From Noviherbaspirillum pedocola (GTDB lineage Bacteria > Pseudomonadota > Gammaproteobacteria > Burkholderiales > Burkholderiaceae_D): a stretch of 64,000 nt of DNA. Positions 11,968 to 42,944 of this stretch are shown here, in pieces (the first letter of the stretch is position 1; the number at the start of each line of letters is the position of its first letter). The notes beneath the pieces were generated by a model. The model was given only the letters and a program-made list of their open reading frames with translations. It did not search any database and was not told where the DNA came from. The position numbers and the translations under genes were made by a program. The stretch spans positions 186,001 to 250,000 of the forward strand of contig NZ_JAEPBG010000004.1 in the NCBI RefSeq assembly GCF_016632335.1, given 5' to 3'.

Positions 11968-12720
11968 ATGTCCGCGATCGTGCGTATCGATGACCAGACC
12001 ATCGGCATCGAAGACTTCGTGAAGACCCTGAAACTCAACGGCCAGTTCGAAAGTCTTGTCGAGCAGCTGGTGCGTGACCGGATCACAGTACTGGCGGCCA
12101 AGAAGCGGGGGATTGCGCTGCCGCCGGATGAGGTGCAGGAGCGCGCCGATCAGTTTCGCCGCATCCAGGGCCTGCATCGGGCCGCGGATATGAACAATTA
12201 TCTCGATGCGCTCGGCGTATCCCTCGATGAATTCGAAGCCTTCATCGTCGACAGCCTGTACCAGGAAAAGATGATGGAGGAAGTCTGCAGCGACGCTGCC
12301 GTGGCGGAATACTTCCATCTCCATTCGCCGAAGTTCGACAGCATGGAGGTCAGCCATATCCTGGTCGACTCGGAGGGCAAGGCGAAGGAAATCCTGGCCT
12401 GCCTGGAAGACGATCCGGATGCCTTCGCCGACATGGCGCTCGAGCACTCGCTGGCCGAGACGCGCGAGCATGGCGGCGCTATCGGCCGGGTCCTGCGCGG
12501 TTCGCTGCGCGGCGACATCGAAGCGCGTGTCTTCAATGCCAATGCCGGCGAAGTCATCGGCCCTTACGCCACGCCGGACCGTTCCCTGTTCGAGATCTTT
12601 CGCGTCGATGCGCGGCATCCGGCAGCGCTTGACGAAGACACCGCCGCTGAAGTGCGGCGCCTGCTGCGCGAAGAATGGTTGCTGGCGCGGGCGCAGGAAC
12701 ACATCATCGAGGCGCGTTAG
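11968..12720 (+). CDS. Parvulin-type peptidyl-prolyl isomerase linked to the peptide exporter
   Basis: 250 residues from the ATG at 11968, with TAAGGA upstream. A SurA-like helical N-terminal part (1-110) is followed by a parvulin domain (about 112-215) with the family pattern MEVSHILV, AFADMALEHS, GGAIGRV, VFNANAGEVIGP and LFEIFRV. Unlike SurA or PrsA it has no signal peptide, so it should act in the cytoplasm. It ends 32 bp before the exporter gene and is probably co-transcribed. PpiC-like proteins without signal sequences occur beside peptide-export ABC transporters in other bacteria, which suggests a chaperone or maturation role for precursor peptides before export (inference). Confidence 0.85.
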   Translation: MSAIVRIDDQTIGIEDFVKTLKLNGQFESLVEQLVRDRITVLAAKKRGIALPPDEVQERADQFRRIQGLHRAADMNNYLDALGVSLDEFEAFIVDSLYQEKMMEEVCSDAAVAEYFHLHSPKFDSMEVSHILVDSEGKAKEILACLEDDPDAFADMALEHSLAETREHGGAIGRVLRGSLRGDIEARVFNANAGEVIGPYATPDRSLFEIFRVDARHPAALDEDTAAEVRRLLREEWLLARAQEHIIEAR

Positions 12721-12752
12721 CCACCGTCACTCACACCTTCACTGCAGCGCGC

Positions 12753-15700
12753 ATGGACGCCGCCTCTCCACAGCAGGCCCTGGCCGACTTCCTGGGCGGG
12801 GTCGAAATCCTTTCCTCCTTCACGCCTGCCGAGCTCGAACAGCTCGCGCGGCAGGCGCAGACGCGGGCGTGCTCCTTTGGTGACACGGTGTGCAATGCCG
12901 GCGCGCCGGCCGCCGGCTTGTACATCGTCAAGTCCGGCTCGGTGCGGGTTTTCACCGAGGAGCACGGCAAGGAAATCAGCATGGGGGTGAAGAAGGCACC
13001 CGAAGTCTTCGGCGAGCTGGCGATGCTGCGCGAACATGCGCATGAATCCTCGGTACGCGCGGCCGCGCGCACCGAACTGGTGATCATTCCGAGGGAAGCG
13101 TTTGCGCCTGTCATTGCCGGTAATCCGGCCGCGCAGGATTACATCACCAGTTTCGTGGCCATCAGTTCTGCCGGCGGCTTCGTCACCCGGCTGTTCGATC
13201 TGCGCGGCAAGGTCGATCGCGCCGAGCTGGAAGAATTCGTGCGCAGCGTCGGCGTCAAGCGCATCGCGGCCGGACGTGAAGTCTTCAGGCAGGACAGCCG
13301 CGACGACCGGCGCCTGTATGTGGTGCGCCGCGGCGAGGTGCGACTGGTACGCAATGAAGGCGGCAACGACTATCCATTGGCCACGCTGCGCCAGGGCGAG
13401 GTCTTCGGCGAGAAGGCTTGCCTGCTGCGCCAGGAGCAGATGGCGACGGCCATCGCCGCTACCGACACCACACTGCTGGTGATACCCGAGCGCACGGTGC
13501 ACCAGATTCTGGGGCGCAATCCGAAGCTCAGGGAAGCGCTGGAGGAACGCATCCGCTACATCGAAAGGGAGCTGGACCGGCAGAAGCGCCTGGCAGAACG
13601 TCGCGGCGGCAAGGTGCAGCTCGATCTGGCATCCAGCCCGGAATTCGGCGAGAGGCTGGTCAAGCGCTTTCCCTTTGTCGAGCAGGCCGAGGAAATGGAT
13701 TGCGGCGCCGCCTGCCTGGCAATGATCTGCCGGCATTACGGCATCGCGATCACGCTCGGCAAGCTGCGCGAGCTGGCCAATGTCACGACCCAGGGCGCGA
13801 CCATGGATAGCCTGGCGCGGGTCGGCGAGTCGCTGGGCTTCACCATGCGCGGCGTGCAATGCACCTTCGATGCATTGCGCGGCTTCGAGCTGCCCTTCAT
13901 CGCGCATTGGGAGGGCTATCACTATGTGGTGGTGTACGGCGTGTCGGCGCGGCAGGTGCATGTGGCCGACCCGGCCATCGGTTTTCGCAAGATGACGGTG
14001 GAGGAATTCGAGCGCGGCTGGAGCGGCACCTGCCTGCTCTTTACACCCGGGCAGGACATGGCGCGGCTGGCATTGGCGCGTTCACCGTGGCTGCGCTTCA
14101 TCGCCTACCTGCGGCCCTATCGCGGCATCCTGCTGAACCTGTTCCTGGCCACCTTCGTGATCCAGCTGCTCGGCGTGGTGCCGCCGCTCATCATCCAGAA
14201 CATCCTCGATGGCGTGATCGTGCACCAGAACATCAGCCTCCTGCACCTGCTGATTCTTGGCCTCATCATTTCCAGCGTCTTCACGCAGCTCATGAGCACG
14301 ATCCGTGCGTATCTGTCGAACTTCATGGTGCGCAACATGGATTTCGCGATGATGTCGCACTTCTTCCGGCACACGATGTCGCTGCCGTTTTCCTTCTTCG
14401 CCAAGCGCAAGACCGGCGACATCCTGGCGCGCTTTCAGGAAAACCATACGATCCGCGCCTTCCTCACCGAGTCCACGGTAAGCACGGTGCTGAACCTGCT
14501 GATGGTGTTCATCTACTTCAGCATCATGTTCGTGTACAGCCTGAAGCTGACCCTGATTCTCATCGCCTTCGTGATTCCCATCGTCGGCCTCACCGTGCTG
14601 GTCACCCCACGACTCAAGCAATATGCGCGCGATGTGTTCAACGCCTCCACCGACGCGCAAGCCTTTCTGATGGAAGCGCTGGGCGGCGTGGAAACCGTCA
14701 AGGGCATGGGCATGGAACGCGCGGTGCGGCTGAAGTGGGAAAGGAAATACGTGAAGGCGCTGCAGGAGCAGTACCGGGCGCAATCCTTCCACATCGTCGT
14801 CGGCCTGGCCAGCCAGCTGCTGAACGCCGCCGTCACCATCTCCATCCTCTGGGTCGGCGCCAGCCTGGTGCTGGAGCGCGAACTGTCCATCGGCCAGCTC
14901 ATTGCCTTCAATTCGCTGATGGGCAGCGTGCTGGCGCCGCTGATGGGACTGGTCGGCTTGTGGAATCTGCTCAACGATGCCGGTGTAGCGATGGAGCGCC
15001 TCGGCGACGTGCTCGACATGGAGCCCGAGCAACGGCCCGAAGACCTGTCCTCGCGCGTGGTGCTGCCGGACCTGCATGGCGAGATACGGCTGGAGAACGT
15101 CTACTTCCGCTATGGCGGCGACGACACGCCTTATGTGCTGGAAAACATCAGCCTCGAAATCCGGCCCGGCGAGCTGGTGGCCATCGTCGGCCGCAGCGGC
15201 TCGGGCAAGACCACGCTGGCCAAGCTGCTGGTGGGCTTTTATGCGCCGACCGACGGCAGGATCAGCGTCGACGGCTATGACATGAACATCGTCGACAAGG
15301 ATTCCTACCGGGCGCAGGTCGGTTATGTCATGCAAAGCAACCTGCTGTTTTCCGGCACCGTGGCCGCCAACATCGCCAGCGGTGACGACAGCCCGGACCG
15401 GCGCCGCATCGAGGAAGCGGCAAAGATGGCCGATGCGCATGCCTTCATCAGCAAGCTGCCGCTGGGCTATGAGCAGGTGGTCGGCGAACGCGGCATGGGC
15501 TTGTCCGGCGGGCAGATACAGCGGCTGTGCATTGCCAGGGCGCTGTATCACGATCCGCGCCTGCTGGTTTTCGATGAAGCGACTTCGGCCCTGGATACGC
15601 AATCCGAGAGCAACATCATCGGCAACATGAACGAGATCCTGAAGGGTCGCACCGCGGTGATCATCGCGCATCGGCTCTCCACCATCATGCGCGCTGACAA

Positions 15701-15812
15701 GATCCTGGTGCTGTACGAAGGCGCGGTGGTGGAGCAGGGCCGGCACGACGAGCTGGTGGACAGGCGCGGCATGTATTACCAGCTGGTGCAGAAGCAGTTG
15801 AGCACGGCATGA
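12753..15812 (+). CDS. Peptidase-containing ABC exporter with two cNMP-binding-like domains and a C39 domain
   Basis: 1019 residues from the ATG at 12753. Order: two cyclic-nucleotide-binding-like domains (about 20-140 and 155-265), C39 peptidase (about 300-430), six-helix ABC membrane domain (about 445-735) and ATPase (about 775-1015). The C39 triad is intact: C317 (EMDCGAACLAMI) with helper Q311, H390 (GYHYVVVYGV) and D406 (VADPAIG). The ATPase has Walker A GRSGSGKTT, signature LSGGQIQRL, Walker B LLVFDEATSALD and the H-loop AHRLST. C39 domains cut bacteriocin-type leaders after Gly-Gly while the mature peptide is exported. Eight such precursors lie 2-8 kb away. The stop overlaps the next start (ATGA). 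Confidence 0.95.
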   Translation: MDAASPQQALADFLGGVEILSSFTPAELEQLARQAQTRACSFGDTVCNAGAPAAGLYIVKSGSVRVFTEEHGKEISMGVKKAPEVFGELAMLREHAHESSVRAAARTELVIIPREAFAPVIAGNPAAQDYITSFVAISSAGGFVTRLFDLRGKVDRAELEEFVRSVGVKRIAAGREVFRQDSRDDRRLYVVRRGEVRLVRNEGGNDYPLATLRQGEVFGEKACLLRQEQMATAIAATDTTLLVIPERTVHQILGRNPKLREALEERIRYIERELDRQKRLAERRGGKVQLDLASSPEFGERLVKRFPFVEQAEEMDCGAACLAMICRHYGIAITLGKLRELANVTTQGATMDSLARVGESLGFTMRGVQCTFDALRGFELPFIAHWEGYHYVVVYGVSARQVHVADPAIGFRKMTVEEFERGWSGTCLLFTPGQDMARLALARSPWLRFIAYLRPYRGILLNLFLATFVIQLLGVVPPLIIQNILDGVIVHQNISLLHLLILGLIISSVFTQLMSTIRAYLSNFMVRNMDFAMMSHFFRHTMSLPFSFFAKRKTGDILARFQENHTIRAFLTESTVSTVLNLLMVFIYFSIMFVYSLKLTLILIAFVIPIVGLTVLVTPRLKQYARDVFNASTDAQAFLMEALGGVETVKGMGMERAVRLKWERKYVKALQEQYRAQSFHIVVGLASQLLNAAVTISILWVGASLVLERELSIGQLIAFNSLMGSVLAPLMGLVGLWNLLNDAGVAMERLGDVLDMEPEQRPEDLSSRVVLPDLHGEIRLENVYFRYGGDDTPYVLENISLEIRPGELVAIVGRSGSGKTTLAKLLVGFYAPTDGRISVDGYDMNIVDKDSYRAQVGYVMQSNLLFSGTVAANIASGDDSPDRRRIEEAAKMADAHAFISKLPLGYEQVVGERGMGLSGGQIQRLCIARALYHDPRLLVFDEATSALDTQSESNIIGNMNEILKGRTAVIIAHRLSTIMRADKILVLYEGAVVEQGRHDELVDRRGMYYQLVQKQLSTA

Positions 15813-17104
15813 AGATCCTCGACCAGCCGCCGGCGCCGCGCTCGGCCCTCTCCTATGCCGGGCTGATCGAGAAGATCGAGATCATGCGCTCGTCGCTGCG
15901 CTGGGCCACGCGCCTGGAGCGGGCCGACATCGAGAAGCTGTTGCGGCAGTCCGGCGCGCTGCGCGATGAAGTGATGCAGCTGTCGCACAAGGAGCGCTTC
16001 GTCGCCGCGGCCACGGGAGAAGGCCAGTCGGTCAGCGTGCTGGCGGCCGCATCGGCGCCGGGCGCGCGCCGCCTGGCGCTGCGACAGCGCAGCTTCGTGT
16101 TCGAGGGCACCTTCGGCGATAACCCGCGCCTGCTCGATGCGCTGGAGATCGCCGAGAAGGCCGCGCCGACCGATCTGCCGGTGCTGATCGATGGCGAAAG
16201 CGGCACCGGCAAGGAATTGATGGCCAAGGTGATCCATGCCAATGGCGCGCGCGCGGACAAGCCCTATGTGTCGGTCAACTGCGGCGCGATACCGGAGAAC
16301 CTGATCGAGTCGGAACTCTTCGGCCACAGGAAGGGCGCCTTCACCGGCGCGGCGGCCGACCGCCGCGGCAAGTTTGAAAGCGCGCATCGCGGCACGATCT
16401 TCCTGGATGAGATCGGCGAGCTGCCTCTGCAGGGACAGGTCAAGCTGCTGCGGGTGCTGCAATCGCATGAGATACAACGGGTCGGCGCCGATGATGTGAT
16501 CTCGGTGGATGCCCGCATCGTCGCGGCGACGAATCGCAATCTGCGTCAGCTGATTGCGCAGGGCAGTTTTCGCGAAGACCTGTTCTATCGCCTGAGCGTG
16601 ATTCATGTCAGCCTGCCGCCGCTGCGCGAGCGGCGCGACGAAATCCCCTTGCTGTGCGCCTATTTCAGCGACGAGGCGGCCGAAGCGCTGAAGCGCGCGC
16701 CGATGAAGATGACGCCGCGCCTGCGCGACTTCCTGCTCGGCTATACCTATCCGGGCAACATCCGCGAACTGCGCAATCTGATCTATCGCCTGTCCTGCCT
16801 GGCCGGCGAGGTCGCGGACCTGGCGCATCTGCCCGAGGATATCCGGCCCGGTATGCGCGAGCGCGAGCTGAATGTTCCGGCGCGGCGCGCGGCCGACGCG
16901 GTCGCGCCGCCAGCCTCGCTCGCCGATGCCAGGCGCGTGGCCAGCGACGAAGCCGAGCGCGCCTTTCTCGAGCGCGGCCTGCGCGAAGTTGGCGGCACCG
17001 TGACGGAACTGGCGCGCCGCTGCGAAATGAATCGTTCGCATCTGCAGATGCTGCTGAAGAAGCATGGATTGCATTCGCGGGATTTCCGGCCGCGCAAAGC
17101 TTGA
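15809..17104 (+). CDS. Sigma-54 enhancer-binding transcriptional activator
   Basis: 431 residues, start overlapping the exporter stop in ATGA. A short N-terminal helical region (1-95) with no receiver, GAF or PAS domain precedes a full AAA+ domain: Walker A GESGTGKE (129-136), the sigma-54 contact loop GAFTGA (176-181), Walker B TIFLDE (196-201), and the arginine-finger region FREDLFYRLSVI. A Fis-type helix-turn-helix closes the protein (LARRCEMNRSHLQMLLKKHG). It should activate sigma-54 promoters. Both peptide operons have near-consensus -24/-12 elements, making them the obvious targets (inference). With no classical sensor domain, control may come from a partner protein or phosphorylation. 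Confidence 0.95.
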   Translation: MKILDQPPAPRSALSYAGLIEKIEIMRSSLRWATRLERADIEKLLRQSGALRDEVMQLSHKERFVAAATGEGQSVSVLAAASAPGARRLALRQRSFVFEGTFGDNPRLLDALEIAEKAAPTDLPVLIDGESGTGKELMAKVIHANGARADKPYVSVNCGAIPENLIESELFGHRKGAFTGAAADRRGKFESAHRGTIFLDEIGELPLQGQVKLLRVLQSHEIQRVGADDVISVDARIVAATNRNLRQLIAQGSFREDLFYRLSVIHVSLPPLRERRDEIPLLCAYFSDEAAEALKRAPMKMTPRLRDFLLGYTYPGNIRELRNLIYRLSCLAGEVADLAHLPEDIRPGMRERELNVPARRAADAVAPPASLADARRVASDEAERAFLERGLREVGGTVTELARRCEMNRSHLQMLLKKHGLHSRDFRPRKA

Positions 17105-17185: not shown

Positions 17186-17956
17186 TCACACCGCCGGATT
17201 GAGCACTGTACTTTCCTGCGCGGCCACATCCTCGGCCATGATCACAACCACTGACACATTGTCCCGACCGCCATGGGCCAGCGCGAGATCAACCAGGCCC
17301 TCGGCCGCACGATGGCAGTCGTGGCAGGCGAGCAGGCGGGCGATCTCCTCGTTGCCGACTTCATTGGAAAGGCCATCGCTGCACAGCAGGAACATGTCGC
17401 CGGCCGAGACATCGACGAGACCGTCTTCCGCGTCGAGCGGCTCCATCGCGCCGATGGCACGCGTGATCAGATTGCGCGCCGGATGGCTCGCTGCATCCTG
17501 CGGCGACAACGCGCCGCGGGCCACCAGTTCGCCGACCACGCTGTGGTCGCTGGTGAGCTGCGTCAGTTGTCCATCGCGAAAGCGGTAGATGCGGCTGTCA
17601 CCGACCCACAGATACGCGCAGCGATGATTTGCCGCGAGCAGTACCACGACAGTGGTGCCGATGGTGCCCACATCGCGTAGTGCGGCTTCCATCTGCAATT
17701 GATGATTGACCGATTGCAGTCGCTCATGCACCTCGGCCACCGCTTGCGTCAGCCCCGGCGCGGCCGGCATGTGCTCCAGGGTATCGATCGTGACGCGGCT
17801 GGCCATGTCGCCTCGGCTGTGCCCGCCCATGCCGTCGGCGACGGCCCACAAGCCGCGTTCCGGGCAATCCAGCAAGGCATCTTCATTGATTTCACGCACC
17901 GCGCCCGGATGGGATCGCGACGCGGATAGCCATCGAAGGGAATTCGCATGCGCCAT
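17186..17956 (-). CDS. PP2C-type serine/threonine protein phosphatase
   Basis: 256 residues, the full length of the bacterial PP2C/Stp family. All metal-binding motifs are present: REINEDA, VADGMGGH (D41), GDSRIYRFRDG, LLCSDGL and HGGRDNVSVVV. It removes phosphate from Ser/Thr residues using Mn or Mg ions. GGAGA precedes the ATG. It is convergent with the sigma-54 activator gene and upstream of the first peptide operon. With two kinases and two FHA proteins in the island, it is probably the antagonist of those kinases. There is no membrane segment, so it is cytoplasmic. Confidence 0.95.
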   Translation of the reverse strand: MAHANSLRWLSASRSHPGAVREINEDALLDCPERGLWAVADGMGGHSRGDMASRVTIDTLEHMPAAPGLTQAVAEVHERLQSVNHQLQMEAALRDVGTIGTTVVVLLAANHRCAYLWVGDSRIYRFRDGQLTQLTSDHSVVGELVARGALSPQDAASHPARNLITRAIGAMEPLDAEDGLVDVSAGDMFLLCSDGLSNEVGNEEIARLLACHDCHRAAEGLVDLALAHGGRDNVSVVVIMAEDVAAQESTVLNPAV

Positions 17957-18031: not shown

Positions 18032-18328
18032 CTATGGTTTGATATTCATGCTGCGTTGATCCACGGCGAGGCTGATCTGCGCGTTCGGCGCGGTGTTGCT
18101 GACGTCTATGCTTTGAAACTGGTTGTTCATCTGCTGAGCGAAGTAGTTGTTGGTGACCTCAAAGACATTGATGACGCCGCCAAAGCCGCCATCACTTGCC
18201 ATTGTCGGGACATACGGGCGTATCCAGCCGTACACCCAGCCCGCGCCGCCGCCGCCGCGGATGGATGACATTGCGCCCGCTTGCAATTCGCTTGCGAGGG
18301 GAAGATCCCGAATGATGAGCTCAGCCAT
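18032..18328 (-). CDS. Double-glycine precursor peptide A4
   Basis: 98 residues, last gene of peptide operon A. The leader follows the shared pattern: MAELIIRDLPLASELQ, then AMSSIRGG, ending at residues 25-26, where the C39 peptidase should cut. The mature part starts with a Gly/Trp/Tyr segment (GGAGWVYGWIRPYVP) and continues with Asn/Gln-rich beta-like sequence (VINVFEVTNNYFAQQMNNQF). It has no Cys. It differs strongly from B4, the last gene of the paralogous operon, so this position evolves fast. GGAGAG precedes the ATG. No modification enzyme of the lanthipeptide type is nearby. Confidence 0.85.
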   Translation of the reverse strand: MAELIIRDLPLASELQAGAMSSIRGGGGAGWVYGWIRPYVPTMASDGGFGGVINVFEVTNNYFAQQMNNQFQSIDVSNTAPNAQISLAVDQRSMNIKP

Positions 18329-18364
18329 GATGACTCTCCGTCGCCGATGAGGAAGGAATGCGTT

Positions 18365-18622
18365 TCAGAACCGCGGCAGCGCCAACGCATTGAAGCCGAT
18401 CTGGGTGGGGCGGACCTGCAGGCCGCCGAGGTCGACGCCGGGGCCGATGATGCTGTGGTTGAGCACGGCCACATGCTGCTCCATGTTGTTGGTCTGGGCC
18501 ACATTGATCGGGATGTTGATGGCGATGCTGGGGCTGCCCGCAGTGCCGCCACGGATGGCGGCCATGGCGCGGCGATCCAGCGTGGCGTCCGGGGCGATGT
18601 TGCGGATGACGAGGGAAGACAT
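18365..18622 (-). CDS. Double-glycine precursor peptide A3
   Basis: 85 residues from the ATG at 18622 (AAAGGA upstream). The leader MSSLVIRNIAPDATLDRR then AMAAIRGG precedes a hydrophobic, uncharged core with NIPINVAQTNNMEQHVAVLN and IIGPGVDLGGLQ. It is nearly identical to B3 (22139-22402), differing by one leader residue and the last few residues. Such identity argues for very recent duplication or gene conversion. No Cys, so no disulfide or thioether is possible in the mature chain. Function unknown; export by the C39 transporter is inferred. Confidence 0.87.
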   Translation of the reverse strand: MSSLVIRNIAPDATLDRRAMAAIRGGTAGSPSIAINIPINVAQTNNMEQHVAVLNHSIIGPGVDLGGLQVRPTQIGFNALALPRF

Positions 18623-18692: not shown

Positions 18693-18986
18693 TCAATAGC
18701 GGCCGACGTAGTTGCCGGCTTGCTGGTTGTTCCAGGCGCAGATGTCGCCGCCGAAGACGGCGGAGCCATTGCCGGTGGCGTTTTGCTGACACTGCGTATT
18801 GGCCTGGGCGATGTCGACGGTGGTGGAATGGCTCACCGGCTTGGGTTCGCAGTACTCGTAGGACGGCATCTTGAAGCAGCTGCTGTAGCTGCTGAAGCCG
18901 CGGCCGGTGCCGCCGTGCACCTTGTTCATGGCTTTGTCGTCCAGGGTTGCGGCAACGGACAGGTCCTTGATGTTGAGGGCGTTCAT
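18693..18986 (-). CDS. Double-glycine precursor peptide A2
   Basis: 97 residues from the ATG at 18986 (AAGGAGAACAGC upstream). The leader MNALNIKDLSVAATLDDK then AMNKVHGG ends at residue 26; His replaces the usual Arg before Gly-Gly. The mature part has an aromatic-Ser start, the KMPSYEYCEPKP segment, then the family motif ATGNGSAVFGGDICAWNNQQ. Four Cys are at 37, 46, 66 and 83. The paralogue B2 keeps the first pair but has the second pair elsewhere. The core is Gln/Asn/Gly-rich with low charge. Predicted substrate of the C39 exporter; biological activity unknown. Confidence 0.88.
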   Translation of the reverse strand: MNALNIKDLSVAATLDDKAMNKVHGGTGRGFSSYSSCFKMPSYEYCEPKPVSHSTTVDIAQANTQCQQNATGNGSAVFGGDICAWNNQQAGNYVGRY

Positions 18987-19029: not shown

Positions 19030-19335
19030 TCAGCCCGGCACGCGCAGGCCGCCGAAGCCGCCAAGCACGTTGAAAGCCTGCTGATTGTTTTCAGCGGTGA
19101 TGCCGCCGCCAAACGTGGCCGAACCGTTGCCGGTGTCGTTCTGCTGGAACTGCTGGTTTTGCTGCTGCGCGCTTACCGTGGTGGTCGAGCTCACCGAAGG
19201 CTTGTACTCGTACGGATGGCAGGAAGGCATCTTGAAGCAGCTGCTGTAGCTGCTGTAGCCACCGCGCACTGCGCTCATGGCTTTGCCGTTCAGTTCTTCG
19301 GCGATGGACAGGTCTTGGATGATCAGGGTGTTCAT
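19030..19335 (-). CDS. Double-glycine precursor peptide A1
   Basis: 101 residues, first gene of operon A, with AAGGAGAACGCAA before the ATG. The leader MNTLIIQDLSIAEELNGK then AMSAVRGG ends at residue 26. The mature part has YSSYSSCFKMPSCHPYEYKP with two Cys (33, 39), then a Gln-rich run (SAQQQNQQFQQN) and the family motif DTGNGSATFGGGITAENNQQ, with a Gly-rich hydrophobic tail. B1 is its counterpart in operon B and shares the second half but lacks both Cys. The sigma-54 promoter lies about 70-85 bp upstream. Confidence 0.88.
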   Translation of the reverse strand: MNTLIIQDLSIAEELNGKAMSAVRGGYSSYSSCFKMPSCHPYEYKPSVSSTTTVSAQQQNQQFQQNDTGNGSATFGGGITAENNQQAFNVLGGFGGLRVPG

Positions 19336-19403: not shown

Positions 19404-19419
19404 CGCATGGACTGTGCCA
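19404..19419 (-). promoter_or_regulatory. Sigma-54 promoter of peptide operon A
   Basis: On the minus strand the sequence is TGGCACAGTCCATGCG. It matches TGGCAC-R-N4-TTGC with the GG and GC dinucleotides at the exact -24/-12 spacing; the only core mismatch is A for the first T of TTGC. Transcription would start near 19393, about 58 bp before the A1 start codon. A near-identical element stands before operon B, and a sigma-54 activator is encoded nearby. Confidence 0.85.
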
Positions 19420-19970
19420 GCCCTTGGTAAATAGGGCGTTCTGGATGCAAGTCATTGAAGTAAAAGGGTAAATCCGCCGGGTGGATACGAGGAGCCATAT
19501 CGGCGCCGTCGTGCCTGCTACCAGGGTGCCGGCTGGTGGCCAACACCGCCCTGGCAAGCTGTCGGCGCAAAACGAACACTGCGAATCGGATGCAGGCAGT
19601 CACTCCACGCGGCCGCGATGCCAGCGGTGCGTGCCGGAAGGTCTATCCGCGGCGCCGTGCGGCATGGCATGAACAACATGCACACTGCCTGCTCGTTCCA
19701 AGCCGGCAGCATGTTCCATACCAGAAACTATAGCGGTTTCCAATAGGAAATTATCTAGGCCCAAAGTCGAAAGAATCCGAGTGCGTCGCACGAGGGACTG
19801 CCGCATAGTGCTCGCCTGAAGAACTGGCCCTTTGGGCTGCGTGTTCCGCAGTTGCGTCACTACCTGTGCGCATCCGCATGCAGCCTGGCGCCGAGAACGC
19901 TTCGATGGAGCCGTCATGGCATTCACATCTGCTGCAGGTGTGGACTATCCAACATGAAGACGAACGACAT
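19420..19970. other. Intergenic region upstream of peptide operon A and the second MCP
   Basis: About 550 bp with no supported gene. It should carry enhancer sites for the sigma-54 promoter on one side and the MCP promoter on the other. A short AT-rich stretch near 19735-19765 is the likeliest MCP promoter area; no clear box was seen. Confidence 0.45.
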
Positions 19971-21755: not shown

Positions 21756-21983
21756 CTATTTGCGGCGATCAGGCGCGCTTGATGGCACCGCGCGGGATTG
21801 GCCGCCCGCGGACCGGCTACGCTGCACGCCGCTTGGAAAATCGACGATGCGCGCGCCGCGTGCGAACGCGGGACCAAGATTGACGGGCCGGCCGCGCAGG
21901 CGTGCGCCGCCGATGATTGCAGCCATGGCTTCGTGGTCGAGATCGGTGTTTTCCGTCAGGTCACGGATGATGAGGCTGGCCAT
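21756..21983 (-). CDS. Double-glycine precursor peptide B4
   Basis: 75 residues from the ATG at 21983, with GGAGGA upstream. The leader MASLIIRDLTENTDLDHE then AMAAIIGG has Ile instead of Arg before Gly-Gly. The mature part is unlike its relatives: 49 residues, strongly basic (ARLRGRPVNLGPAFARGARI and an Arg/Ser tail) with no Cys. Basic, Arg/Pro/Gly-rich mature peptides of this size resemble antimicrobial peptides, but this is only a compositional remark. Last gene of operon B. Confidence 0.8.
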   Translation of the reverse strand: MASLIIRDLTENTDLDHEAMAAIIGGARLRGRPVNLGPAFARGARIVDFPSGVQRSRSAGGQSRAVPSSAPDRRK

Positions 21984-22138: not shown

Positions 22139-22402
22139 TCAGAGAAAGCGTGGCGGCAGCGCCAGCGCATTGAAGCCGATCTGGGTGGGGCGGACCTGCA
22201 GGCCGCCGAGGTCGACGCCGGGGCCGATGATGCTGTGGTTGAGCACGGCCACATGCTGCTCCATGTTGTTGGTCTGGGCCACATTGATCGGGATGTTGAT
22301 GGCGATGCTGGGGCTGCCCGCAGTGCCGCCACGAATGGCGGCCATGGCGCGGCGGTCCAGCGCGGCGTCCGGGGCGATGTTTCGGATGACGAGGGAAGAC
22401 AT
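22139..22402 (-). CDS. Double-glycine precursor peptide B3
   Basis: 87 residues from the ATG at 22402. The leader MSSLVIRNIAPDAALDRR then AMAAIRGG and nearly all of the mature chain equal A3; the C-terminus reads ALPPRFL instead of ALPRF. A hydrophobic core without charge or Cys (NIPINVAQTNNMEQHVAVLN) suggests a beta-rich or membrane-seeking mature peptide. The near-identity with A3 includes the DNA around both genes. Confidence 0.87.
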   Translation of the reverse strand: MSSLVIRNIAPDAALDRRAMAAIRGGTAGSPSIAINIPINVAQTNNMEQHVAVLNHSIIGPGVDLGGLQVRPTQIGFNALALPPRFL

Positions 22403-22472: not shown

Positions 22473-22763
22473 TCAATAGCGGCCGACGTAGTTGCCGGCC
22501 TGCTGATTGTTCCAGGCAGCGATGTCGCCGCAGAAGACGGCGGAGCCATTGCCGGTGGGGTTTTGCTGATACTGGGTATTGGACTGGCAGATGTCGACGG
22601 TGGTGGAGTGGCTGACCGGCTTGGGCTCGCAGTACTGGTAGGACGGCATCTTGAAGCAGCTGTTGTAGCTGGAGCCGCGGCCGGTGCCGCCGCGCACCTT
22701 GTGCATGGCTTTGTCGTCCAGGGTTGCGGCAACGGACAGGTCCTTGATGTTGAGGGCGTTCAT
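22473..22763 (-). CDS. Double-glycine precursor peptide B2
   Basis: 96 residues from the ATG at 22763 (AAGGAGAACAGC upstream). The leader MNALNIKDLSVAATLDDK then AMHKVRGG matches A2. The mature part has SSYNSCFKMPSYQYCEPKP and PTGNGSAVFCGDIAAWNNQQ. Cys are at 36, 45, 59 and 78: the first pair equals A2, while the second pair sits seven and five residues away from the positions in A2. Both members of the second pair moved together, as if each pair forms a disulfide. Predicted export and cleavage by the C39 ABC protein. Confidence 0.88.
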   Translation of the reverse strand: MNALNIKDLSVAATLDDKAMHKVRGGTGRGSSYNSCFKMPSYQYCEPKPVSHSTTVDICQSNTQYQQNPTGNGSAVFCGDIAAWNNQQAGNYVGRY

Positions 22764-32033: not shown

Positions 32034-34565
32034 GTGAGTGTCTCTCCGCAGCCGATGCCGCAGCAGGGTCGGGCGCGCGATGCGCCGGCCGCGTTCGCGC
32101 TGCTGCTGGAACCGCTGTCGCATCCGGAACTCGGCGAGATACGCATCCAGGACACGCTGTTTCCCATCGGTCGCAATGAAGCGCCTTTCGACGCCTATCC
32201 GGCCGAGCTCACGGCCACGCTGTCGCGCCGCCATGCACGCCTCTTCTGTGAAGGCGGCGAGGCCTATGTCGCGGACCTCGGCAGCCGCAACGGCACTACG
32301 GTCAATGGCGTGGATGTACGCGAGAAGACCAGCCGTCTGAAGGATGGCGATGAAATTCGCTTCGGCAGCGCATTGGCCTACCGCATCCGGCTGGGCAAGA
32401 GTATGGCCGCGCCGGTATCCACGGCGCGCCTGACCGCGCTCACGCTCACGCCCGAGCATGCTGCGCTCGGCTTGCAAACCATCGTCGTCACCGAGTTTCC
32501 ATTTCTGATCGGGAAATCCGAGCCCGAGTTCGCGCGCTACGGCGAAGCGCATGCACAGCAGCTGGCCTTCCTGTCGCGGCGCCATGCGCATATCTTCCTG
32601 CGGCGCGGCATGCCCTGGATTGAAGACCTTGGCAGCACCAACGGCAGCTATATCGATGGCAAGCGGCTGCAGGAGCATGCGGCGCCGATCACGGACGGCA
32701 CGCGCCTGGCCTTCGGCGGCCAGCATTTCGCGTACATCGCCAGCCTGCAGCGCGAAGCGCTCGCGGTCGACCCGACGCTTACCGGCATCGCGCTGCCTGC
32801 GCAAGTCCCGGACGCCGCGCCAGCCGCTGTTGCGCTATCCGATCCGGAAAAGACTACGTTCGTGGCCGCGGCGGGTTCCTTCCTCGACATCTTCTGCGTG
32901 ACGCCGGCGCAGGATGCGGGCGCGGACAAGGGCATGGATGCCGCTGTACCGGCATCCATGCCTTCCCGGCACGCAAGGGAAGCGCCGCGCAGCATGGCGG
33001 CGGCCTGGGTGCGCGCACTCGTCGGAGACAGCGGCCCGTCTCGTGCGCGGATGCTGGCCTGGATAGCTGGGCTTGCGGCTGTAGTGCTCGCACTGGCCGC
33101 GACGCTGGCCATGCGCGGTGGCGACGAGAAAAAGGTGCGCGCGCTGCTGGCCGAGGGTAGCTTCGAGCGCGCCGCCGCAGTTGCAAACGCGCATCTGGCA
33201 ACGCACCCCGACGATTCGGCGATGAAGGCGCTCGATACTGAGGCCGTGTTGAAGGGCGGAGTGCCGCCCTGGCTGGCAGCGCTCAAGGGTGGGCGCGACA
33301 AGGAAGTGCGGGAGCTGCAGGAGCACATGGCACAGAGCGCGCGTGGCAACGATGACCTGCGCGCGTTATTGGGCGAACTCGACTGGGTGGCGCGGCTGCG
33401 CCGCTACATCGCCGGGCGCGGCGGACTGGAAGCGCCGGTGCGCATCTATGTTGATGAAGCGCCGATGCGCGAGCTGCTGGCATGGTGGGATGCGGATGCG
33501 AACGGCCATCAGCGCCAGCTCTCGCGCATCGCTGCCCAGGTGCCAGCCTTTCGCGATACCTATGCCGAAGCGCTCAGTCATGTGCGCCGGCTCAAGAGCG
33601 ACGATGCGGTCTATGGCGCCGCTATCGAACGTCTCAATGCCGCACTCGAAACCGAGCTGAAGGAAGACCGGCTCGATGCCGTGCCAGCGCTGCTGGATGA
33701 CTACGCGGAGAAATATCCGCGGCTCGGCGGACTCGAGCGCATCCGCGCCGATCTCGCGCTGTACCGGCAAGCACTGGAAGCCGCGCGCGATCGGCGCGTG
33801 GGACTGATGGTCGCGCTGCGCGACAGCGCGCAGTTCGCCACCCCGCCGTTCCGTGACAAGTTCCACGCGCTGGCTGCCGGGCCACGCTTCCCGCCAGCGG
33901 AGCTGGCGCAGCAATACCGCGCTGTTGCCGCCAGCTGGCAGGCCGGCAATACGCGCGCGGCGATCGAGCGCCTCGAGGCGATGCGCGGCGGTGCCTGGAG
34001 CGATGCGGTGGATGCCGAGATCGCGCGCAAGAAACGCATTGCCGAAGGCTTTGCTGCCCTGCCCAAGGCACGCGGCAGCCCCGGCCAGGAAGAACGGGTA
34101 CTGGCGTTTTACGATGCGTTGAATCCGTTCGAGGACGGCTGGTTCCTGCAAGCAGCAAGCGACGAGATCGAGCCTTACCGCCGGCAGGCGCAACAGCAGG
34201 CGCGCGAACTCATCGAGCGCGCCGAAGCGCAATGGCGTCGCTACCGCGACGGCGGCGGCATCGAAGGGCCGCAGCGCCTGGAGGCCACGGTATCCGATCG
34301 CTTCCGCAGCCAGGCACGGCTGCTGGTGGCGGCCAGGGACGATGCGCAGCGCGGCATGCGCCTGTTGCGGCAGGTGCGTGCCGAGCAGCCGTCGCAATCG
34401 GCGAGCCTGCAGGAACAGATCGGCGCCGAGCTCGAGCAGCAGCGGCGCGCGTTGCGCGACGCACGAGCAGCGCTCGATCCGGCGGTGTACCGGGCCAAGC
34501 TGGCCCTGCTTGGAGGCGAAGATGGCGAAAGAGAAAGCGCAAGAGCTGGCGCAGGACGGTCCTAA
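32034..34565 (+). CDS. Membrane protein with two N-terminal FHA domains and a periplasmic helical part
   Basis: 843 residues from a GTG at 32034 (TGAGGAG upstream, 10 bp after the OMF stop). FHA1 (about 24-118) has FPIGRNEAP, TLSRRHARL, GSRNGTTVNG. FHA2 (about 138-235) has FLIGKSEPE, FLSRRHAHI, GSTNGSYIDGK. Both keep the Arg, Ser/Arg-His and Asn residues that contact phosphothreonine. One TM helix (340-360) is followed by about 480 residues of charged helices, probably periplasmic. It overlaps hlyD by 44 bp, implying one machine. Role (inference): a phospho-dependent scaffold recruiting the exporter or kinases, comparable in logic to Fha in type VI secretion. Confidence 0.9.
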   Translation: MSVSPQPMPQQGRARDAPAAFALLLEPLSHPELGEIRIQDTLFPIGRNEAPFDAYPAELTATLSRRHARLFCEGGEAYVADLGSRNGTTVNGVDVREKTSRLKDGDEIRFGSALAYRIRLGKSMAAPVSTARLTALTLTPEHAALGLQTIVVTEFPFLIGKSEPEFARYGEAHAQQLAFLSRRHAHIFLRRGMPWIEDLGSTNGSYIDGKRLQEHAAPITDGTRLAFGGQHFAYIASLQREALAVDPTLTGIALPAQVPDAAPAAVALSDPEKTTFVAAAGSFLDIFCVTPAQDAGADKGMDAAVPASMPSRHAREAPRSMAAAWVRALVGDSGPSRARMLAWIAGLAAVVLALAATLAMRGGDEKKVRALLAEGSFERAAAVANAHLATHPDDSAMKALDTEAVLKGGVPPWLAALKGGRDKEVRELQEHMAQSARGNDDLRALLGELDWVARLRRYIAGRGGLEAPVRIYVDEAPMRELLAWWDADANGHQRQLSRIAAQVPAFRDTYAEALSHVRRLKSDDAVYGAAIERLNAALETELKEDRLDAVPALLDDYAEKYPRLGGLERIRADLALYRQALEAARDRRVGLMVALRDSAQFATPPFRDKFHALAAGPRFPPAELAQQYRAVAASWQAGNTRAAIERLEAMRGGAWSDAVDAEIARKKRIAEGFAALPKARGSPGQEERVLAFYDALNPFEDGWFLQAASDEIEPYRRQAQQQARELIERAEAQWRRYRDGGGIEGPQRLEATVSDRFRSQARLLVAARDDAQRGMRLLRQVRAEQPSQSASLQEQIGAELEQQRRALRDARAALDPAVYRAKLALLGGEDGERESARAGAGRS

Positions 34566-35916
34566 GCCACTGGCTGAAGCACTGGAAGACCATAGTGACG
34601 AAGGTATCGCGCTGCTCATGGCCGAGTCCTCGCGCCTGGCGCGGGCGACGGTCGTCACCATGCTCGCATTGGTGCTGGCCGGCCTGGCATGGTCCTTCTT
34701 CGGTCATGCCGATGTGACGGTCACGGCGCAGGGCGCGCTGACGCCGGAATCCGAAGTGCGGCGGCTGTATGCGCCGGTGGATGGCGAGCTGGCCAATCTG
34801 TACATTGCCGAAGGGCAGCCGGTGTCCAGGGGCGACGTGCTTGCGCGCCTGAATGCGCGCGGCGCGATCGAGGCAGCCACCAACGCGCTCGAAGCGCAGC
34901 TCAAGCTTGAATCGGCCGAGCGCGAATGGAAGGAGTTCCCGCAGAAAAAGGCCTTGCTTGAGCGGCGCGCGGCCGCGTTGAAGCAGCAGATGGAGTTGGA
35001 AGAACATCAGAACGAGCGGCGCATCACCGAAGGCACCGGCAAGCTCGCCGAGACCCAGCGCGCGCAACTGCAGGAAGCGCGCACCAATGTCGAGGATGCG
35101 CGGCGCGCGCGCGATGCGGCGAAGGATGAGGCGGACAAGTATGCGCGGCTGTCGGCCTTGCCCGGCGGCGGCGGCGTGGCGCAGCTGCAGGTCGAAAGCA
35201 AGAAGAACGCGCTGCAGGCGGCGGACAATGCGCTGCGGGTGGCGCAATCGCGGCTCTCGGAATTGTCGGCGCGGCAGTCGCTCGAACTCGGGCAGGCGCG
35301 CACGCAGCTCGAAACCAGCGGCCAGGAACTGGCGCGCCTGCGGCTCGAATACGAAGCCGCGACGCGCGAAGTGGCCAATACCGAGGACAAGCTGCGGCTG
35401 CAGGTGCAGACCGCGCGCCTGCTGGCCGATGCGGCGGCGCGCATCCGCTTCGAGAACATCGACAAGGACAACTTCCTGCTCATCGTCGCACCGGTCGATG
35501 GCGTGATCACCGACGTCACCACCACCCAGCCCGGCGACAAGGTGCAAGCCAATGCACCGATCGGCGGCATCGCGCCGAAGGAAGCGCGTGTCGTGCTGAA
35601 GATCGAAATCAATGAAAGCGACCGCGGCTTTCTGCGCGAAGGGCAGGCGGCCAGGCTGAAGTTCAATGCCTTTCCCTACCAGCGCTATGGCGTGATCAAC
35701 GGCACGCTGCAATTCATCTCGCCGACCGCCAGGCCGAGCGCGCAATCGAAGAAACCCGTGTACGAAGGCCGCATCACGCTGGACCGCGATTTCTATCAGG
35801 TCGGCGACATGCGCTATGCGCTGCGCTACGGCATGGTGGCGAATGCGGAAATCGTAGTGCGCGAGCGGCGACTGATCGACCTGGCGCTGGATCCGTTCCG
35901 GCAGGTAGGGGGATGA
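34522..35916 (+). CDS. HlyD-family membrane-fusion protein of the peptide exporter
   Basis: 464 residues from the ATG at 34522, inside the end of the preceding gene with GGAGGCGAAG upstream. A short cytoplasmic N-terminus and TM helix (43-60) precede a lipoyl half-motif (VRRLYAPVDGELANLYIAEG), a long coiled coil (about 120-320), the second lipoyl half (LIVAPVDGVITDVTTTQPGD) and a C-terminal beta-barrel domain (VVLKIEINESDRGFLREGQ). It bridges an inner-membrane ABC exporter to the outer-membrane factor. The only peptidase-containing ABC exporter in the window is at 12.7 kb, so it is the natural partner. Confidence 0.94.
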   Translation: MAKEKAQELAQDGPKPLAEALEDHSDEGIALLMAESSRLARATVVTMLALVLAGLAWSFFGHADVTVTAQGALTPESEVRRLYAPVDGELANLYIAEGQPVSRGDVLARLNARGAIEAATNALEAQLKLESAEREWKEFPQKKALLERRAAALKQQMELEEHQNERRITEGTGKLAETQRAQLQEARTNVEDARRARDAAKDEADKYARLSALPGGGGVAQLQVESKKNALQAADNALRVAQSRLSELSARQSLELGQARTQLETSGQELARLRLEYEAATREVANTEDKLRLQVQTARLLADAAARIRFENIDKDNFLLIVAPVDGVITDVTTTQPGDKVQANAPIGGIAPKEARVVLKIEINESDRGFLREGQAARLKFNAFPYQRYGVINGTLQFISPTARPSAQSKKPVYEGRITLDRDFYQVGDMRYALRYGMVANAEIVVRERRLIDLALDPFRQVGG

Positions 35917-40053: not shown

Positions 40054-40385
40054 GCTCGAGACCGGCATGGATTCGCGCTGAAGGCGGCGTGAGTCCCATC
40101 AAGGACGTTATCAAGCCCCTGTCAATCGGTACGAACGAAGGCGCCGATGCTGCTGGCGCCGAGACATCCGGCGAAACAAAACGAAAGCATTGAGCGTGAG
40201 ACGCGGCCGACTGGAGACGGTGTACTGCATGTACTACGCTCCCGTAGCCGGTCATTCGGAAACGGTACTAGCTGTCCTGCGTGGCCGACCGTCTCACGGC
40301 ATATCTTTCAGCCGACGGTGCGCGGCACGTGTTCCTTGCGTAGCAGACCGCTGCCATGGGTCAATCCGGATCATGGGACTGGCGT
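40054..40385. other. Intergenic region between convergent ankyrin and kinase genes
   Basis: 332 bp between two gene ends. No gene, strong hairpin or repeat was recognised. Confidence 0.5.
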
Positions 40386-42944
40386 TCAGCGCGCCAGCGG
40401 CCTGGCATCGTCTCCGGACGCCATGCCGCCGTTTTCGGTCTTCACGCCGTCGCGGAATTCGCCTTCCCAGGCGCCGCCGGATGCCCAGGCATAGCGGCCG
40501 TGGCCATGGCTCTTGCCCATGCGCCAGGCGCCGCTGTAGATATCGCCGTTGGCGAAGCGGTTGGTCCCGCTCCCATCCGGCAGGCCGTTCCTGACGTCGC
40601 CGGAATAGCGGTCGCCATTGCTGAAGTCGATGACGCCTACGCCATGCGGCACGCCATCCCGCATCTCTCCTTCATAGCGGTTGCCGTTGGCGAACTGCAT
40701 CGTGCCCTTGCCGTTAGGCAGTCCGCGCGCCCAGTCGCCCCTGTAACGCTGGCCATTGGCCCAGATGAATTCGCCCTTGCCTTGCCGCACGCCTTGCGCC
40801 AGCGTGCCTTCGAAGCGGTCGCCATTGTCCCAGACGATGCGGCCGCGGCCGGAGACGGCGCCGGTGACCGGGTCCGTCGTGAAGTTGCCCGTCATGGTCT
40901 GGCCTGGCAGCTTGAGCACCCTGCCTTCGCTGCTCATCGTTTCGCTTGCCCGCTGCGGTTCGCGTGCCTTATCAGGCTCGGGTTTTTGCGCAGCCTGATA
41001 AGGCGCTTTTTCCGCCGGCCCGGCCGGCGCAGTGCGCTCCTGTGCTGCTGGCGCTTCGGTCCTGGCGGCGTCGCTGGCCGGCGCGTCTGGCGATGCCTGC
41101 GGCATTGCTTGCGCGATGCGCGGTGTCGAGGCTTGCCCCGCGGTCTGTGTCGGCGGCGTCGTTTGTGGTGGTGGCGTCGCCGGTGTCGCGGATGGGACTC
41201 GGGCCGTTGGCCCCGCAATCGATGGCGTAGCGGGGAGTCCGTAGCCCTGCTGCGGAGCCGCTGGAGCCGCATTGCGCGCGGTGCTGGATGTGTTGGCTTC
41301 GCTGGTGGAGGCGCCCGGCGCTTTTGATGCGGCGGATGCGTGCGACTCTTCCGCGTGCCTGAGCCGCGCCAGACTGGCCCGCGCTTCATCCGCATGGCGA
41401 CTGGTTGGATACCTGCTCAGGAAGGACTCATAGACCAGTGGTTTGTCGATGTTGCGTACCGCTGCCCACAATTCCTCTTCGCGACGCTGCGTCTCCCCAG
41501 CCGATGGATGCTCGCGCTTTTCCGGGTTGGCGATGCCCGGCGCCGCGGCAGCGGCGCTTGCTTCGGGCTTTGTGGCGGCCGGCGTCTGGCCCAAGGCAGC
41601 GGTGCTTCCGGTCGATGGCGCGACCGGTTCGCTGTGCCGGGTCACTTCCTGCGGCGCGGATGCGGCCTTGCCGGGATGCCGGACCGCGAGACGAAAGCCG
41701 CCGTAGAGCGCAGCAGCAACGATGAGCACCAGCATGGCCTCGATGGTGCTGCGCCTGCCCAGGGTGCGTGGCGCGTGCGCGGCAAGCCATTGCCGCAGCC
41801 GCTCGATCACGCGGTGGCGCGCGCCATATGGTCTTCGCCATTGAGCTGCCCGCCGTTCCGGCGCGCTTGCGGTGCCCTCGCGGCGGAAGGCTTCAGGCCT
41901 GGCCGCGCTTGCCATCGGTTCCGTGCGCGTGGCCTCGTCCACGCTCGGCATGGCTTCGGGAATGCTTTCGTCGATGCCGAGCGCGCTGCGGAATTGCGCC
42001 ACCGAGCGGATGCGCAGCTCGGGCCGCACAGCCAGCGCATGGTCCAGCGTGGCCAGGAAGCTGTCGCGGTAGCGTCCCTTGCCGGCCTGGCGCGCCGGCA
42101 GCATGTCGTCCTGCACGATGCGCGCTACCGCCGGTGGCGGCGGCTTGCGCGTGATCAGGTAATACACCACCGCGGCCAGCGCATACACATCGGTCCAGGG
42201 CCCCTGCTGCATGCCCGGGGTTTCCATGTACTGCTCGATGGGCGCATAGCCGGGCTTGAGTATCGCGGTCGGCATGTGCGTGAGGTCGCCGAGCACCTGC
42301 CGCGCCGCGCCGAAATCGAGCAGCACCGGGCGGCCATCCTCGAGCAGCATGATGTTGTCCGGCGCAATGTCGCGGTGATAGCAATGCGCCGCATGGATCA
42401 GGCTGATCGCGTCGAGCAGATAGGCGAGAAAGGCGCGTATCCATTCTTCGGTCGGTGTGATTTGCCCGCTTCGAATGGCTTGCTTCAGGGTCACGCCTTC
42501 ATAGAAGGGCATGGCCATGTAGGCGGTGCCATTGGCTTCCCAGAAACGGTAGACCTTCAGCAATGCCGGATGATCGAAGCGCGCCAGCAGCCGCGCTTCA
42601 TTGAGGAAGCTGCGCATGCCGACCCGGAACAGTTCCGCTTCGCGCGGGGAAGTGGCCAGCACATTGCCGTTCGAGGAGCGCAGCGCGAAGCTCGTGGGCA
42701 TGTATTCCTTGACCGCGACATGGCGTTCGAGAAAATGGTCCTGGGCCAGATAGACGATGCCGAAGCCGCCGATGCCGATGACTTTCAGAATTTCGAATTC
42801 GCCGAGCCGCGCCCCTGGCGGCAACGGATTGCCATCGTCAGTCGCCACGCGTTGTGCAGCGGCAGGATCGCCGGGCAGCGCGGGCAGGATCACCGTGCGA
42901 TTCGGCTCGGGTGGGGTCGCGTTCATGTCGAAAGGCTTGCGCAT
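40386..42944 (-). CDS. Membrane serine/threonine kinase with six C-terminal MORN repeats
   Basis: 852 residues from the first ATG; M7 (42926) is equally possible because neither has a clear ribosome site. Kinase domain about 48-325: GIGGFGIVYLA, K79 (VAVKEY), catalytic D192 in YHRDIAPDNIM, DFG at 210-212, and LKPGYAPIEQY in the activation segment. Ala replaces the usual Lys two residues after the catalytic Asp, a variant seen in many proteobacterial kinases. One TM helix (402-421) is followed by a Pro/Ala/Thr-rich linker. Six 23-residue MORN repeats (about 698-835; e.g. NGNRYEGEMRDGVPHGVG) form a beta-sheet ribbon, probably periplasmic. Candidate sensor kinase for the secretion system. Confidence 0.92.
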   Translation of the reverse strand: MRKPFDMNATPPEPNRTVILPALPGDPAAAQRVATDDGNPLPPGARLGEFEILKVIGIGGFGIVYLAQDHFLERHVAVKEYMPTSFALRSSNGNVLATSPREAELFRVGMRSFLNEARLLARFDHPALLKVYRFWEANGTAYMAMPFYEGVTLKQAIRSGQITPTEEWIRAFLAYLLDAISLIHAAHCYHRDIAPDNIMLLEDGRPVLLDFGAARQVLGDLTHMPTAILKPGYAPIEQYMETPGMQQGPWTDVYALAAVVYYLITRKPPPPAVARIVQDDMLPARQAGKGRYRDSFLATLDHALAVRPELRIRSVAQFRSALGIDESIPEAMPSVDEATRTEPMASAARPEAFRREGTASAPERRAAQWRRPYGARHRVIERLRQWLAAHAPRTLGRRSTIEAMLVLIVAAALYGGFRLAVRHPGKAASAPQEVTRHSEPVAPSTGSTAALGQTPAATKPEASAAAAAPGIANPEKREHPSAGETQRREEELWAAVRNIDKPLVYESFLSRYPTSRHADEARASLARLRHAEESHASAASKAPGASTSEANTSSTARNAAPAAPQQGYGLPATPSIAGPTARVPSATPATPPPQTTPPTQTAGQASTPRIAQAMPQASPDAPASDAARTEAPAAQERTAPAGPAEKAPYQAAQKPEPDKAREPQRASETMSSEGRVLKLPGQTMTGNFTTDPVTGAVSGRGRIVWDNGDRFEGTLAQGVRQGKGEFIWANGQRYRGDWARGLPNGKGTMQFANGNRYEGEMRDGVPHGVGVIDFSNGDRYSGDVRNGLPDGSGTNRFANGDIYSGAWRMGKSHGHGRYAWASGGAWEGEFRDGVKTENGGMASGDDARPLAR

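Follow-up and report, generated by a model that had tools for sequence, protein, structure and literature searches.

Gene content of the locus

The stretch of 64,000 nucleotides (nt) of the Noviherbaspirillum pedocola genome analyzed here (contig NZ_JAEPBG010000004.1, forward-strand positions 186,001 to 250,000), in the following called the window, contains between positions 11968 and 42944 a gene cluster that probably represents a type I secretion system dedicated to small double-glycine (Gly-Gly) peptides and under its own threonine-phosphorylation control. The genome to which the window belongs comprises 7.24 Mb in 80 contigs. Domain identities are based on Pfam unless stated otherwise, and NCBIfam was run as well. 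Codes beginning with G denote sampled genomes, G000 being the window genome, and codes beginning with L denote loci. The following features were found:

11968..12720, plus strand: SurA/parvulin-like peptidyl-prolyl isomerase (Pfam Rotamase; without signal peptide as judged by eye)
12753..15812, plus strand: exporter with two cNMP domains, C39 peptidase, ABC transmembrane and ATPase domains
15809..17104, plus strand: sigma-54 activator (AAA+), in which Pfam found no sensor domain
17186..17956, minus strand: PP2C phosphatase with a conserved C-terminal Thr tail (Pfam and tail motif)
18032..18328, minus strand: Gly-Gly peptide 1 (leader pattern and profile)
18365..18622, minus strand: Gly-Gly peptide 2 (leader pattern and profile)
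18693..18986, minus strand: Gly-Gly peptide 3 (leader pattern and profile)
19030..19335, minus strand: Gly-Gly peptide 4, first gene of cassette 1 (leader pattern and profile)
19404..19420, minus strand: sigma-54 (-24/-12) promoter-like site CTGGCACAGTCCATGCG, score 23 of 27, beginning 85 nt before the start of peptide 4
21756..21983, minus strand: Gly-Gly peptide 5, with a short, basic and diverged mature part (looser pattern and profile)
22139..22402, minus strand: Gly-Gly peptide 6, copy of peptide 2 (leader pattern and profile)
22473..22763, minus strand: Gly-Gly peptide 7, copy of peptide 3 (leader pattern and profile)
22816..23115, minus strand: Gly-Gly peptide 8, first gene of cassette 2 (leader pattern and profile)
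23180..23196, minus strand: sigma-54 promoter-like site CTGGCACGGTCCATGCG, score 24 of 27, beginning 81 nt before the start of peptide 8
23381..25603, plus strand: transmembrane Ser/Thr kinase STK1, its C-terminal domain weakly DUF4384-like (E 0.003, below cut-off)
26211..27380, minus strand: FGE-like protein with an N-terminal hydrophobic segment
27296..28081, plus strand: open reading frame (ORF) with a second DUF4399 protein in its C-terminal part (by eye; relatives also have two DUF4399)
28131..28553, plus strand: DUF4399 protein
28584..30599, plus strand: FHA-GAF-HD-GYP protein
30596..32023, plus strand: outer-membrane factor (OMF) of the OEP family
32034..34565, plus strand: double-FHA membrane protein with two FHA domains, a disordered linker with invariant Thr, a transmembrane helix and a long helical C-terminal domain (Pfam and model)
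34522..35916, plus strand: HlyD-type periplasmic adaptor
40386..42944, minus strand: second transmembrane Ser/Thr kinase, with MORN repeats; an occasional partner rather than a core part

An initial annotation, made from the sequence alone, had proposed most of these parts. Pfam confirms all three families of its tripartite export route (C39-ABC, HlyD and OMF), the AAA+ domain of the sigma-54 activator, the PP2C phosphatase, the double-FHA and the FHA-GAF-HD-GYP protein, the FGE-like protein and the parvulin, which were taken to be secreted and cytoplasmic, respectively. Both proposed transmembrane kinases, STK1 and the MORN kinase, have kinase matches and one clear hydrophobic segment each, and all eight proposed precursors are present, each with a 26-residue leader. 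The close gene overlaps pointed out in that annotation are real as well: the HD-GYP stop and the OMF start share an ATGA at 30596-30599, and the double-FHA and HlyD genes overlap by 44 nt (34522-34565).

Of what characterizes a C39-type Gly-Gly type I system, the encoded parts are present at the locus, namely a C39 peptidase with catalytic Cys/His/Asp residues fused to an ABC exporter, precursors nearby (8/8 genome matches), and both HlyD and OMF. The catalytic residues C317, H390 and D406 of the exporter are identical in 61/61 aligned sequences. In the cNMP domains of the exporter (residues 86-103 and 218-236) the usual phosphate-binding Arg is absent, and other residues, e.g., RQEQ, are invariant. 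This Arg has its role in canonical cAMP binding by cNMP domains; as it is absent, such binding is not claimed here, and the domains may bind something other than cAMP, or nothing.

Co-occurrence across genomes

The evidence that the parts belong together comes foremost from their distribution. In a family sample of 294 genomes, the exporter (its cNMP-C39 part, E 1e-40) was found in 29 and the double-FHA protein (its C-terminal region, E 1e-8) in 34. The latter was present in 29/29 exporter-positive genomes versus 5/265 of the others (Fisher p 2.7e-35, phylogeny ignored). The initial annotation had made its one-system reading dependent on joint occurrence in other genomes, and joint occurrence is what was found for exporter and double-FHA protein; the leader consensus, which it had named as the third element of such a search, was checked for exclusiveness in the window genome only.

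A subset of 70 genomes comprised the 29 exporter-positive genomes, the 5 with the double-FHA protein only, and 36 negatives taken in listing order. The sensor region of STK1 was detected in 29/29, 5/5 and 0/36 of these, respectively. For the FHA-HD-GYP ortholog (E <1e-170, all remaining matches being >1e-60) the corresponding numbers were 29/29, 4/5 and 0/36, and for the PP2C ortholog (E <1e-59, the next match being 1.3e-40) 27/29, 1/5 and 0/36. Since the Fisher value does not account for phylogeny, joint absences within genera are the better argument: the genera g1, g3, g112 and g120 contain positives plus at least one genome (G212, G056, G239 and G210) without exporter, double-FHA, STK1 and FHA-HD-GYP together. 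These distributions support the reading of the cluster as one system. Of the two kinases that had been assigned to it, STK1 holds its place, whereas the MORN kinase proved to be an occasional partner: in 10/29 positive genomes a homolog lies no more than 1 kb from the PP2C ortholog.

At the level of the order, the double-FHA region was matched in only two of 200 genomes, the window genome and G158, so the system is patchy. In a class-wide sample a related cNMP-C39 exporter occurred in 10/369 genomes, the window genome included.

Gene order and distant relatives

Gene neighborhoods were compared in 80 related loci with flanks of up to 10 kb, for which reason the following counts are lower bounds. 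The activator was matched in 80 loci, the parvulin in 79 (the one locus without it beside the exporter lies at a contig edge), PP2C in 70, double-FHA and HlyD in 63 each, OMF in 61, DUF4399 in 58 and FGE in 56, many FGE matches being cut at the flank. The family genomes that were read have the same order as the window: parvulin, exporter and activator come first, then PP2C and the peptides in reverse orientation, STK1, a likewise reversed FGE gene, two DUF4399, FHA-HD-GYP, OMF, double-FHA and HlyD; some of these genomes have insertions or a separation between the two halves of the cluster. The OMF/double-FHA/HlyD block lies ahead of the parvulin in G289 and in most loci of Cupriavidus, Caballeronia and Paraburkholderia. 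That the same genes recur in permuted order points to a shared function rather than to mere neighborhood.

In two genomes of other orders (G682 and G649), OMF, double-FHA, HlyD, parvulin, exporter and activator lie in a row. Six more-distant loci were read, their exporters showing 34-37% identity in the best-aligning piece. In four of them the neighbor beyond the exporter was scanned, and it encodes an FHA protein in L209, L211 and L212; in L213 a PP2C-family gene lies about 5 kb away.

Further observations concern the surroundings of these genes. In G649 a protein with a caspase domain (C14) and Sel1 repeats (L207:12479-15238) adjoins the outer-membrane factor. OEP-family proteins of about 620-700 residues are encoded near the distant exporters of L209, L210, L211 and L212, in tandem in L209 and L212. 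The double-FHA region also occurs on four records of a plasmid collection (NZ_CP049317.1, NZ_CP049157.1, NZ_CP071130.1 and NZ_CP156686.1), three from Caballeronia and one from Burkholderia stagnalis. Two neighboring genes of the window were discarded as parts of the system: the large protein with ankyrin repeats that is encoded between HlyD and the MORN kinase (35968-40053), with 0 matches in the 80 related loci and their flanks of up to 10 kb, and, as a core component, the chemoreceptor encoded between the two peptide cassettes, with matches in 4/80. A chemoreceptor gene is found near the cluster in some relatives as well.

The peptide family

The eight minus-strand peptides of the window are arranged in two four-gene cassettes (18032-19335 and 21756-23115), which arose by duplication; 1.07 kb align at 85% DNA identity. 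The last peptides of the two cassettes (18032-18328 and 21756-21983) have mature parts unlike each other. A strict leader pattern retrieved seven of the peptides and a looser one the eighth (21756-21983), and a profile built from 50 peptides matched, in the whole window genome at E 0.01, these eight and no others.

Applied to 81 loci (the 80 related ones plus the window), the leader pattern yielded 143 ORFs in 63 loci versus 0 ORFs on reversed sequences (1.79 Mb), thus the family is not a product of chance. The leader is exactly 26 residues long in 132/143 of these ORFs; one of them, at 8799-9107 in the window with a 40-residue leader, is clearly spurious. The consensus of 147 leaders, parts of which were imposed by the search patterns, reads I-x-D-L, then L-D-x-x-A-M-x-x-[VI]-R-G-G. 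The mature parts of the four main groups have a mean length of 64-71 residues and contain much N, Q, S and G but little charge. L061 encodes nine peptides, six of them near-identical. In G415 (L146 and L162) five Gly-Gly peptides lie beside STK1 and a parvulin fragment in a genome without an exporter match, which suggests a possible decay of the system.

Sigma-54 promoter-like sites

Sites were called at a weighted consensus score of at least 23 (maximum 27) within 300 nt upstream. They were found before 81/159 peptide genes versus 1.3% of shuffled copies, and on the other strand of the same 159 genes there were none (0/159). If array position is considered and repeats are removed, sites precede 81/113 first peptides and 0/44 of those that follow. 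In 69/81 cases the site begins 75-100 nt before the start codon, and both cassettes of the window are preceded by one. Upstream regions of the other genes gave few or no sites: parvulin 0/72, activator 0/87, PP2C 0/77, STK1 0/16, FGE 1/38, FHA-HD-GYP 0/14, OMF 2/68, HlyD 1/73 and DUF4399 1/70. The sites in front of the peptide arrays thus offer an obvious target to the activator next to the exporter, which would act there.

Candidate phosphosites

The HD-GYP, STK1, PP2C, C39 and AAA+ domains retain their key residues across the aligned orthologs. HDxGK and HHExxDGxGYP of the FHA-HD-GYP protein are identical in 14/14 sequences, and in the double-FHA protein conservation of the FHA signature residues is at least 90% (47 sequences). 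In a structural model of the latter (47 alignment rows, from 83 ORFs listed; mean pLDDT 84, pTM 0.55), the two FHA domains are followed by a disordered linker (244-322), by a hydrophobic helix around position 340 and by a helical domain that spans about 470 residues and is modeled with confidence. A structure search with this model gave FHA matches only among the matches listed; as one domain fills the list, the helical domain is barely covered.

Conserved threonines in a linker or tail were found in three proteins. Within the double-FHA linker, Thr 248, 250, 274 and 275 and Ser 282 are 96-100% conserved, compared to a linker median of 49% (47 sequences). The C-terminal tail of PP2C carries the motif [DESN]-x-T-x-[LVIM]-N-P in 78/78 orthologs, from which identical, more than 97% similar and incomplete sequences had been removed beforehand, and in 0/19 other PP2Cs of the family; this pattern was written after viewing the tails, and the control set was 20 fetched PP2Cs, one being without ORF. 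The linker of STK1 contains Thr-x-[VL] in 12/12 sequences, a motif without control, preceded by an acidic residue in 11 of them, the STK1 of the window being the exception. The PP2C and STK1 motifs were spotted by eye, an automatic scan for conserved Thr with variable surroundings having missed both. Acidic-x-Thr-like motifs were also seen, by eye only, in the FHA proteins of L211 and L212. We infer that the conserved linker and tail threonines are phosphosites bound by the FHA domains.

Proposed mechanism and its alternatives

From these data the following mechanism can be envisioned. The activator encoded beside the exporter would turn on the peptide arrays from their -24/-12 promoters. The precursors would then be received by the parvulin and the cNMP-C39-ABC exporter, which would remove the 26-residue leader, and the mature peptides would exit via HlyD and the outer-membrane factor. 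STK1, its C-terminal domain probably facing the envelope and perhaps assisted by the FGE-like protein as co-sensor, would phosphorylate the threonines of the double-FHA linker and the PP2C tail, to which FHA domains would bind. The double-FHA protein would relay this state to the HlyD/exporter assembly via its long, presumably periplasmic helical domain, PP2C would reset the phosphorylation state, and the FHA-HD-GYP protein might couple the same signal to c-di-GMP. The peptides would most likely form extracellular matrix, a reading in terms of matrix fibers which we favor because of the analogy to EbfG of Synechococcus; a curli-like matrix in particular is a weakly supported guess. Curlin_rpt matched two peptides of L153 below cut-off (17.9 and 17.3 bits versus 20.7; E 0.003 and 0.005), which had been chosen for their curlin-like look and were among 8 relatives scanned.

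One might speculate further that the system is a phosphothreonine-gated type I machine, in which the double-FHA protein carries a kinase/PP2C/FHA switch across the inner membrane. This switch would open or assemble the channel that releases sigma-54-controlled curli-like peptides as matrix fibers, and would at the same time lower c-di-GMP via HD-GYP. The coupling between FHA protein and exporter would then be old, because an FHA protein flanks exporters of about 34-37% identity in three distant loci. This extended version is tentative, and as a whole we consider it somewhat less likely than not.

Several observations weigh against the proposed system or parts of it. Regarding its composition, five genomes (G217, G256, G265, G415 and G424) have double-FHA and STK1 without an exporter match at E 1e-40, three of them being 81-86% complete, G415 91% and G256 99%. 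The PP2C ortholog is missing in the exporter-positive G377 and G408. The FHA-HD-GYP protein, a member according to the initial annotation, keeps this status in 29/29 positive genomes, but among the related loci, with flanks of up to 10 kb, it matches in 34/80 and near full length in only 5. In G344 (L148, L149 and L150) rearrangement or misassembly has scattered STK1, OMF and double-FHA over three places far apart on a single contig. The 19 kb read of G682 and the 15.6 kb read of G649 contain neither an STK1 nor a PP2C match, hence the FHA protein can occur there without these two nearby, and in L210 an integrase gene instead of an FHA gene follows the exporter. Regarding regulation, 32/113 first peptides have no strong sigma-54 site, and the MORN kinase has such a site in 2/4 upstream regions. 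In the double-FHA linker 14/79 positions are at least 90% conserved, including a hydrophobic block after Thr 275; because Thr 274/275 lie inside this wider conserved block, they may serve binding rather than phosphorylation. As to the product, none of the eight window peptides gave a Curlin match at E 1, the below-cut-off matches being confined to relatives, and an AlphaFold model of the peptide family (50 rows; 46/69 relatives listed) was uninformative with a pLDDT of 55.

Among the other explanations, the peptides could be antibacterial bacteriocins, microcin- or Cdz-like, whose release is timed by the kinase/FHA layer. Bacteriocins classically leave the cell by way of a Gly-Gly leader and a C39 exporter, several diverged peptides are encoded per locus, and two peptides touch Bacteriocin_IIc below cut-off (E 0.16 and 0.09; best 13.2 bits versus 27.1). 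However, the gaps between genes in each window cassette do not exceed about 155 nt and leave no space for an immunity gene, the six near-identical copies among the nine L061 peptides look like dosage, the mature parts are N/Q-rich and of low charge, and the eight window peptides exceed no family cut-off in Pfam or NCBIfam. We therefore regard bacteriocins as unlikely.

Alternatively, the peptides could be cell-cell signals sensed by STK1 or the chemoreceptor, which would make the phospho layer a receiver instead of an export gate. This idea draws on the C-terminal domain of STK1 beyond its membrane segment, on the presence of this kinase alongside the exporter in 29/29 genomes, and on the chemoreceptor gene between the cassettes and near the cluster of some relatives. 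The double-FHA gene, in contrast, overlaps HlyD and its product points to the channel with its long C-terminal domain, and six near-identical copies as in L061 would be unusual for a signal, so that we consider this idea quite improbable. That the phospho layer belongs to type VI secretion or another process and merely neighbors the exporter is very hard to maintain: its kinase, PP2C and FHA protein belong to the families of PpkA, PppA and Fha1, and TagR is FGE-like, but the type VI sheath gene VipB (PF05943) is unmatched in the window genome (G000) and in 12/29 exporter-positive genomes, and VipB occurs in 11/36 negatives, in which orthologs of STK1, double-FHA and FHA-HD-GYP are all absent.

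Comparison with known systems

No description of a system such as the proposed phosphorylation-controlled peptide exporter was found in our literature searches, which covered titles and the beginnings of abstracts of open-licence papers with few subscription journals and no preprints; within this scope the result agrees with the initial annotation, which knew of no described peptide secretion system with kinase, phosphatase and FHA control. Type I secretion is generally regarded as controlled by expression. In Burkholderia-related soil bacteria, peptide secretion may instead be switched by protein phosphorylation. If true, an exporter and a class of promoters could be assigned to the uncharacterized Burkholderiales peptide family, along with precisely located candidate phosphosites.

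Other known systems share single aspects with the cluster. NHLP/NHLM bacteriocin export employs C39-ABC and HlyD relatives, yet the window proteins score far below the cut-offs of TIGR03796 (567 versus 853 bits) and TIGR03794 (81 versus 156 bits). Cdz of Caulobacter is described as a two-protein bacteriocin of small proteins that is associated with type I secretion and mediates contact-dependent killing. GarA, OdhI and DgcB are soluble FHA proteins that regulate metabolism or c-di-GMP and are not known to regulate export. For Rv1747/PknF, an ABC exporter carrying two FHA domains is described whose cognate Ser/Thr kinase is encoded in the same operon. In Rv1747 the FHA domains lie within the ABC protein itself, and a C39 domain, Gly-Gly peptides and a tripartite channel are not known there.

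Cyanobacteria are not known to possess sigma-54. In Synechococcus elongatus the C39 protein PteB is needed to secrete several Gly-Gly small proteins including EbfG, of which EbfG1-3 form amyloid and which support biofilm (PMC4997328, PMC9981879). PteB and EbfG1-4 thus resemble the window cluster in that a C39 exporter serves several Gly-Gly small proteins; the word "kinase" occurs 0 times in the main texts of both studies (PMC4997328, PMC9981879).

A close parallel on the side of control is type VI secretion, where a membrane Ser/Thr kinase, a phosphatase, an FHA effector and envelope sensors control the secretion machine by threonine phosphorylation (PMC12133291). The window cluster shares a Ser/Thr kinase, a PP2C and an FHA protein with this pathway (PpkA, PppA, Fha1, TagQRST). 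It differs in that the machine is a tripartite ABC peptide exporter, that its FHA protein resides in the membrane and combines two FHA domains with a long helical one, and that an FHA-HD-GYP protein is added. Taken together, the cluster looks as if controls like those of the type VI threonine phosphorylation pathway had been set on a type I peptide exporter, and, if this holds true, the logic of that pathway would be used by an unrelated machine.

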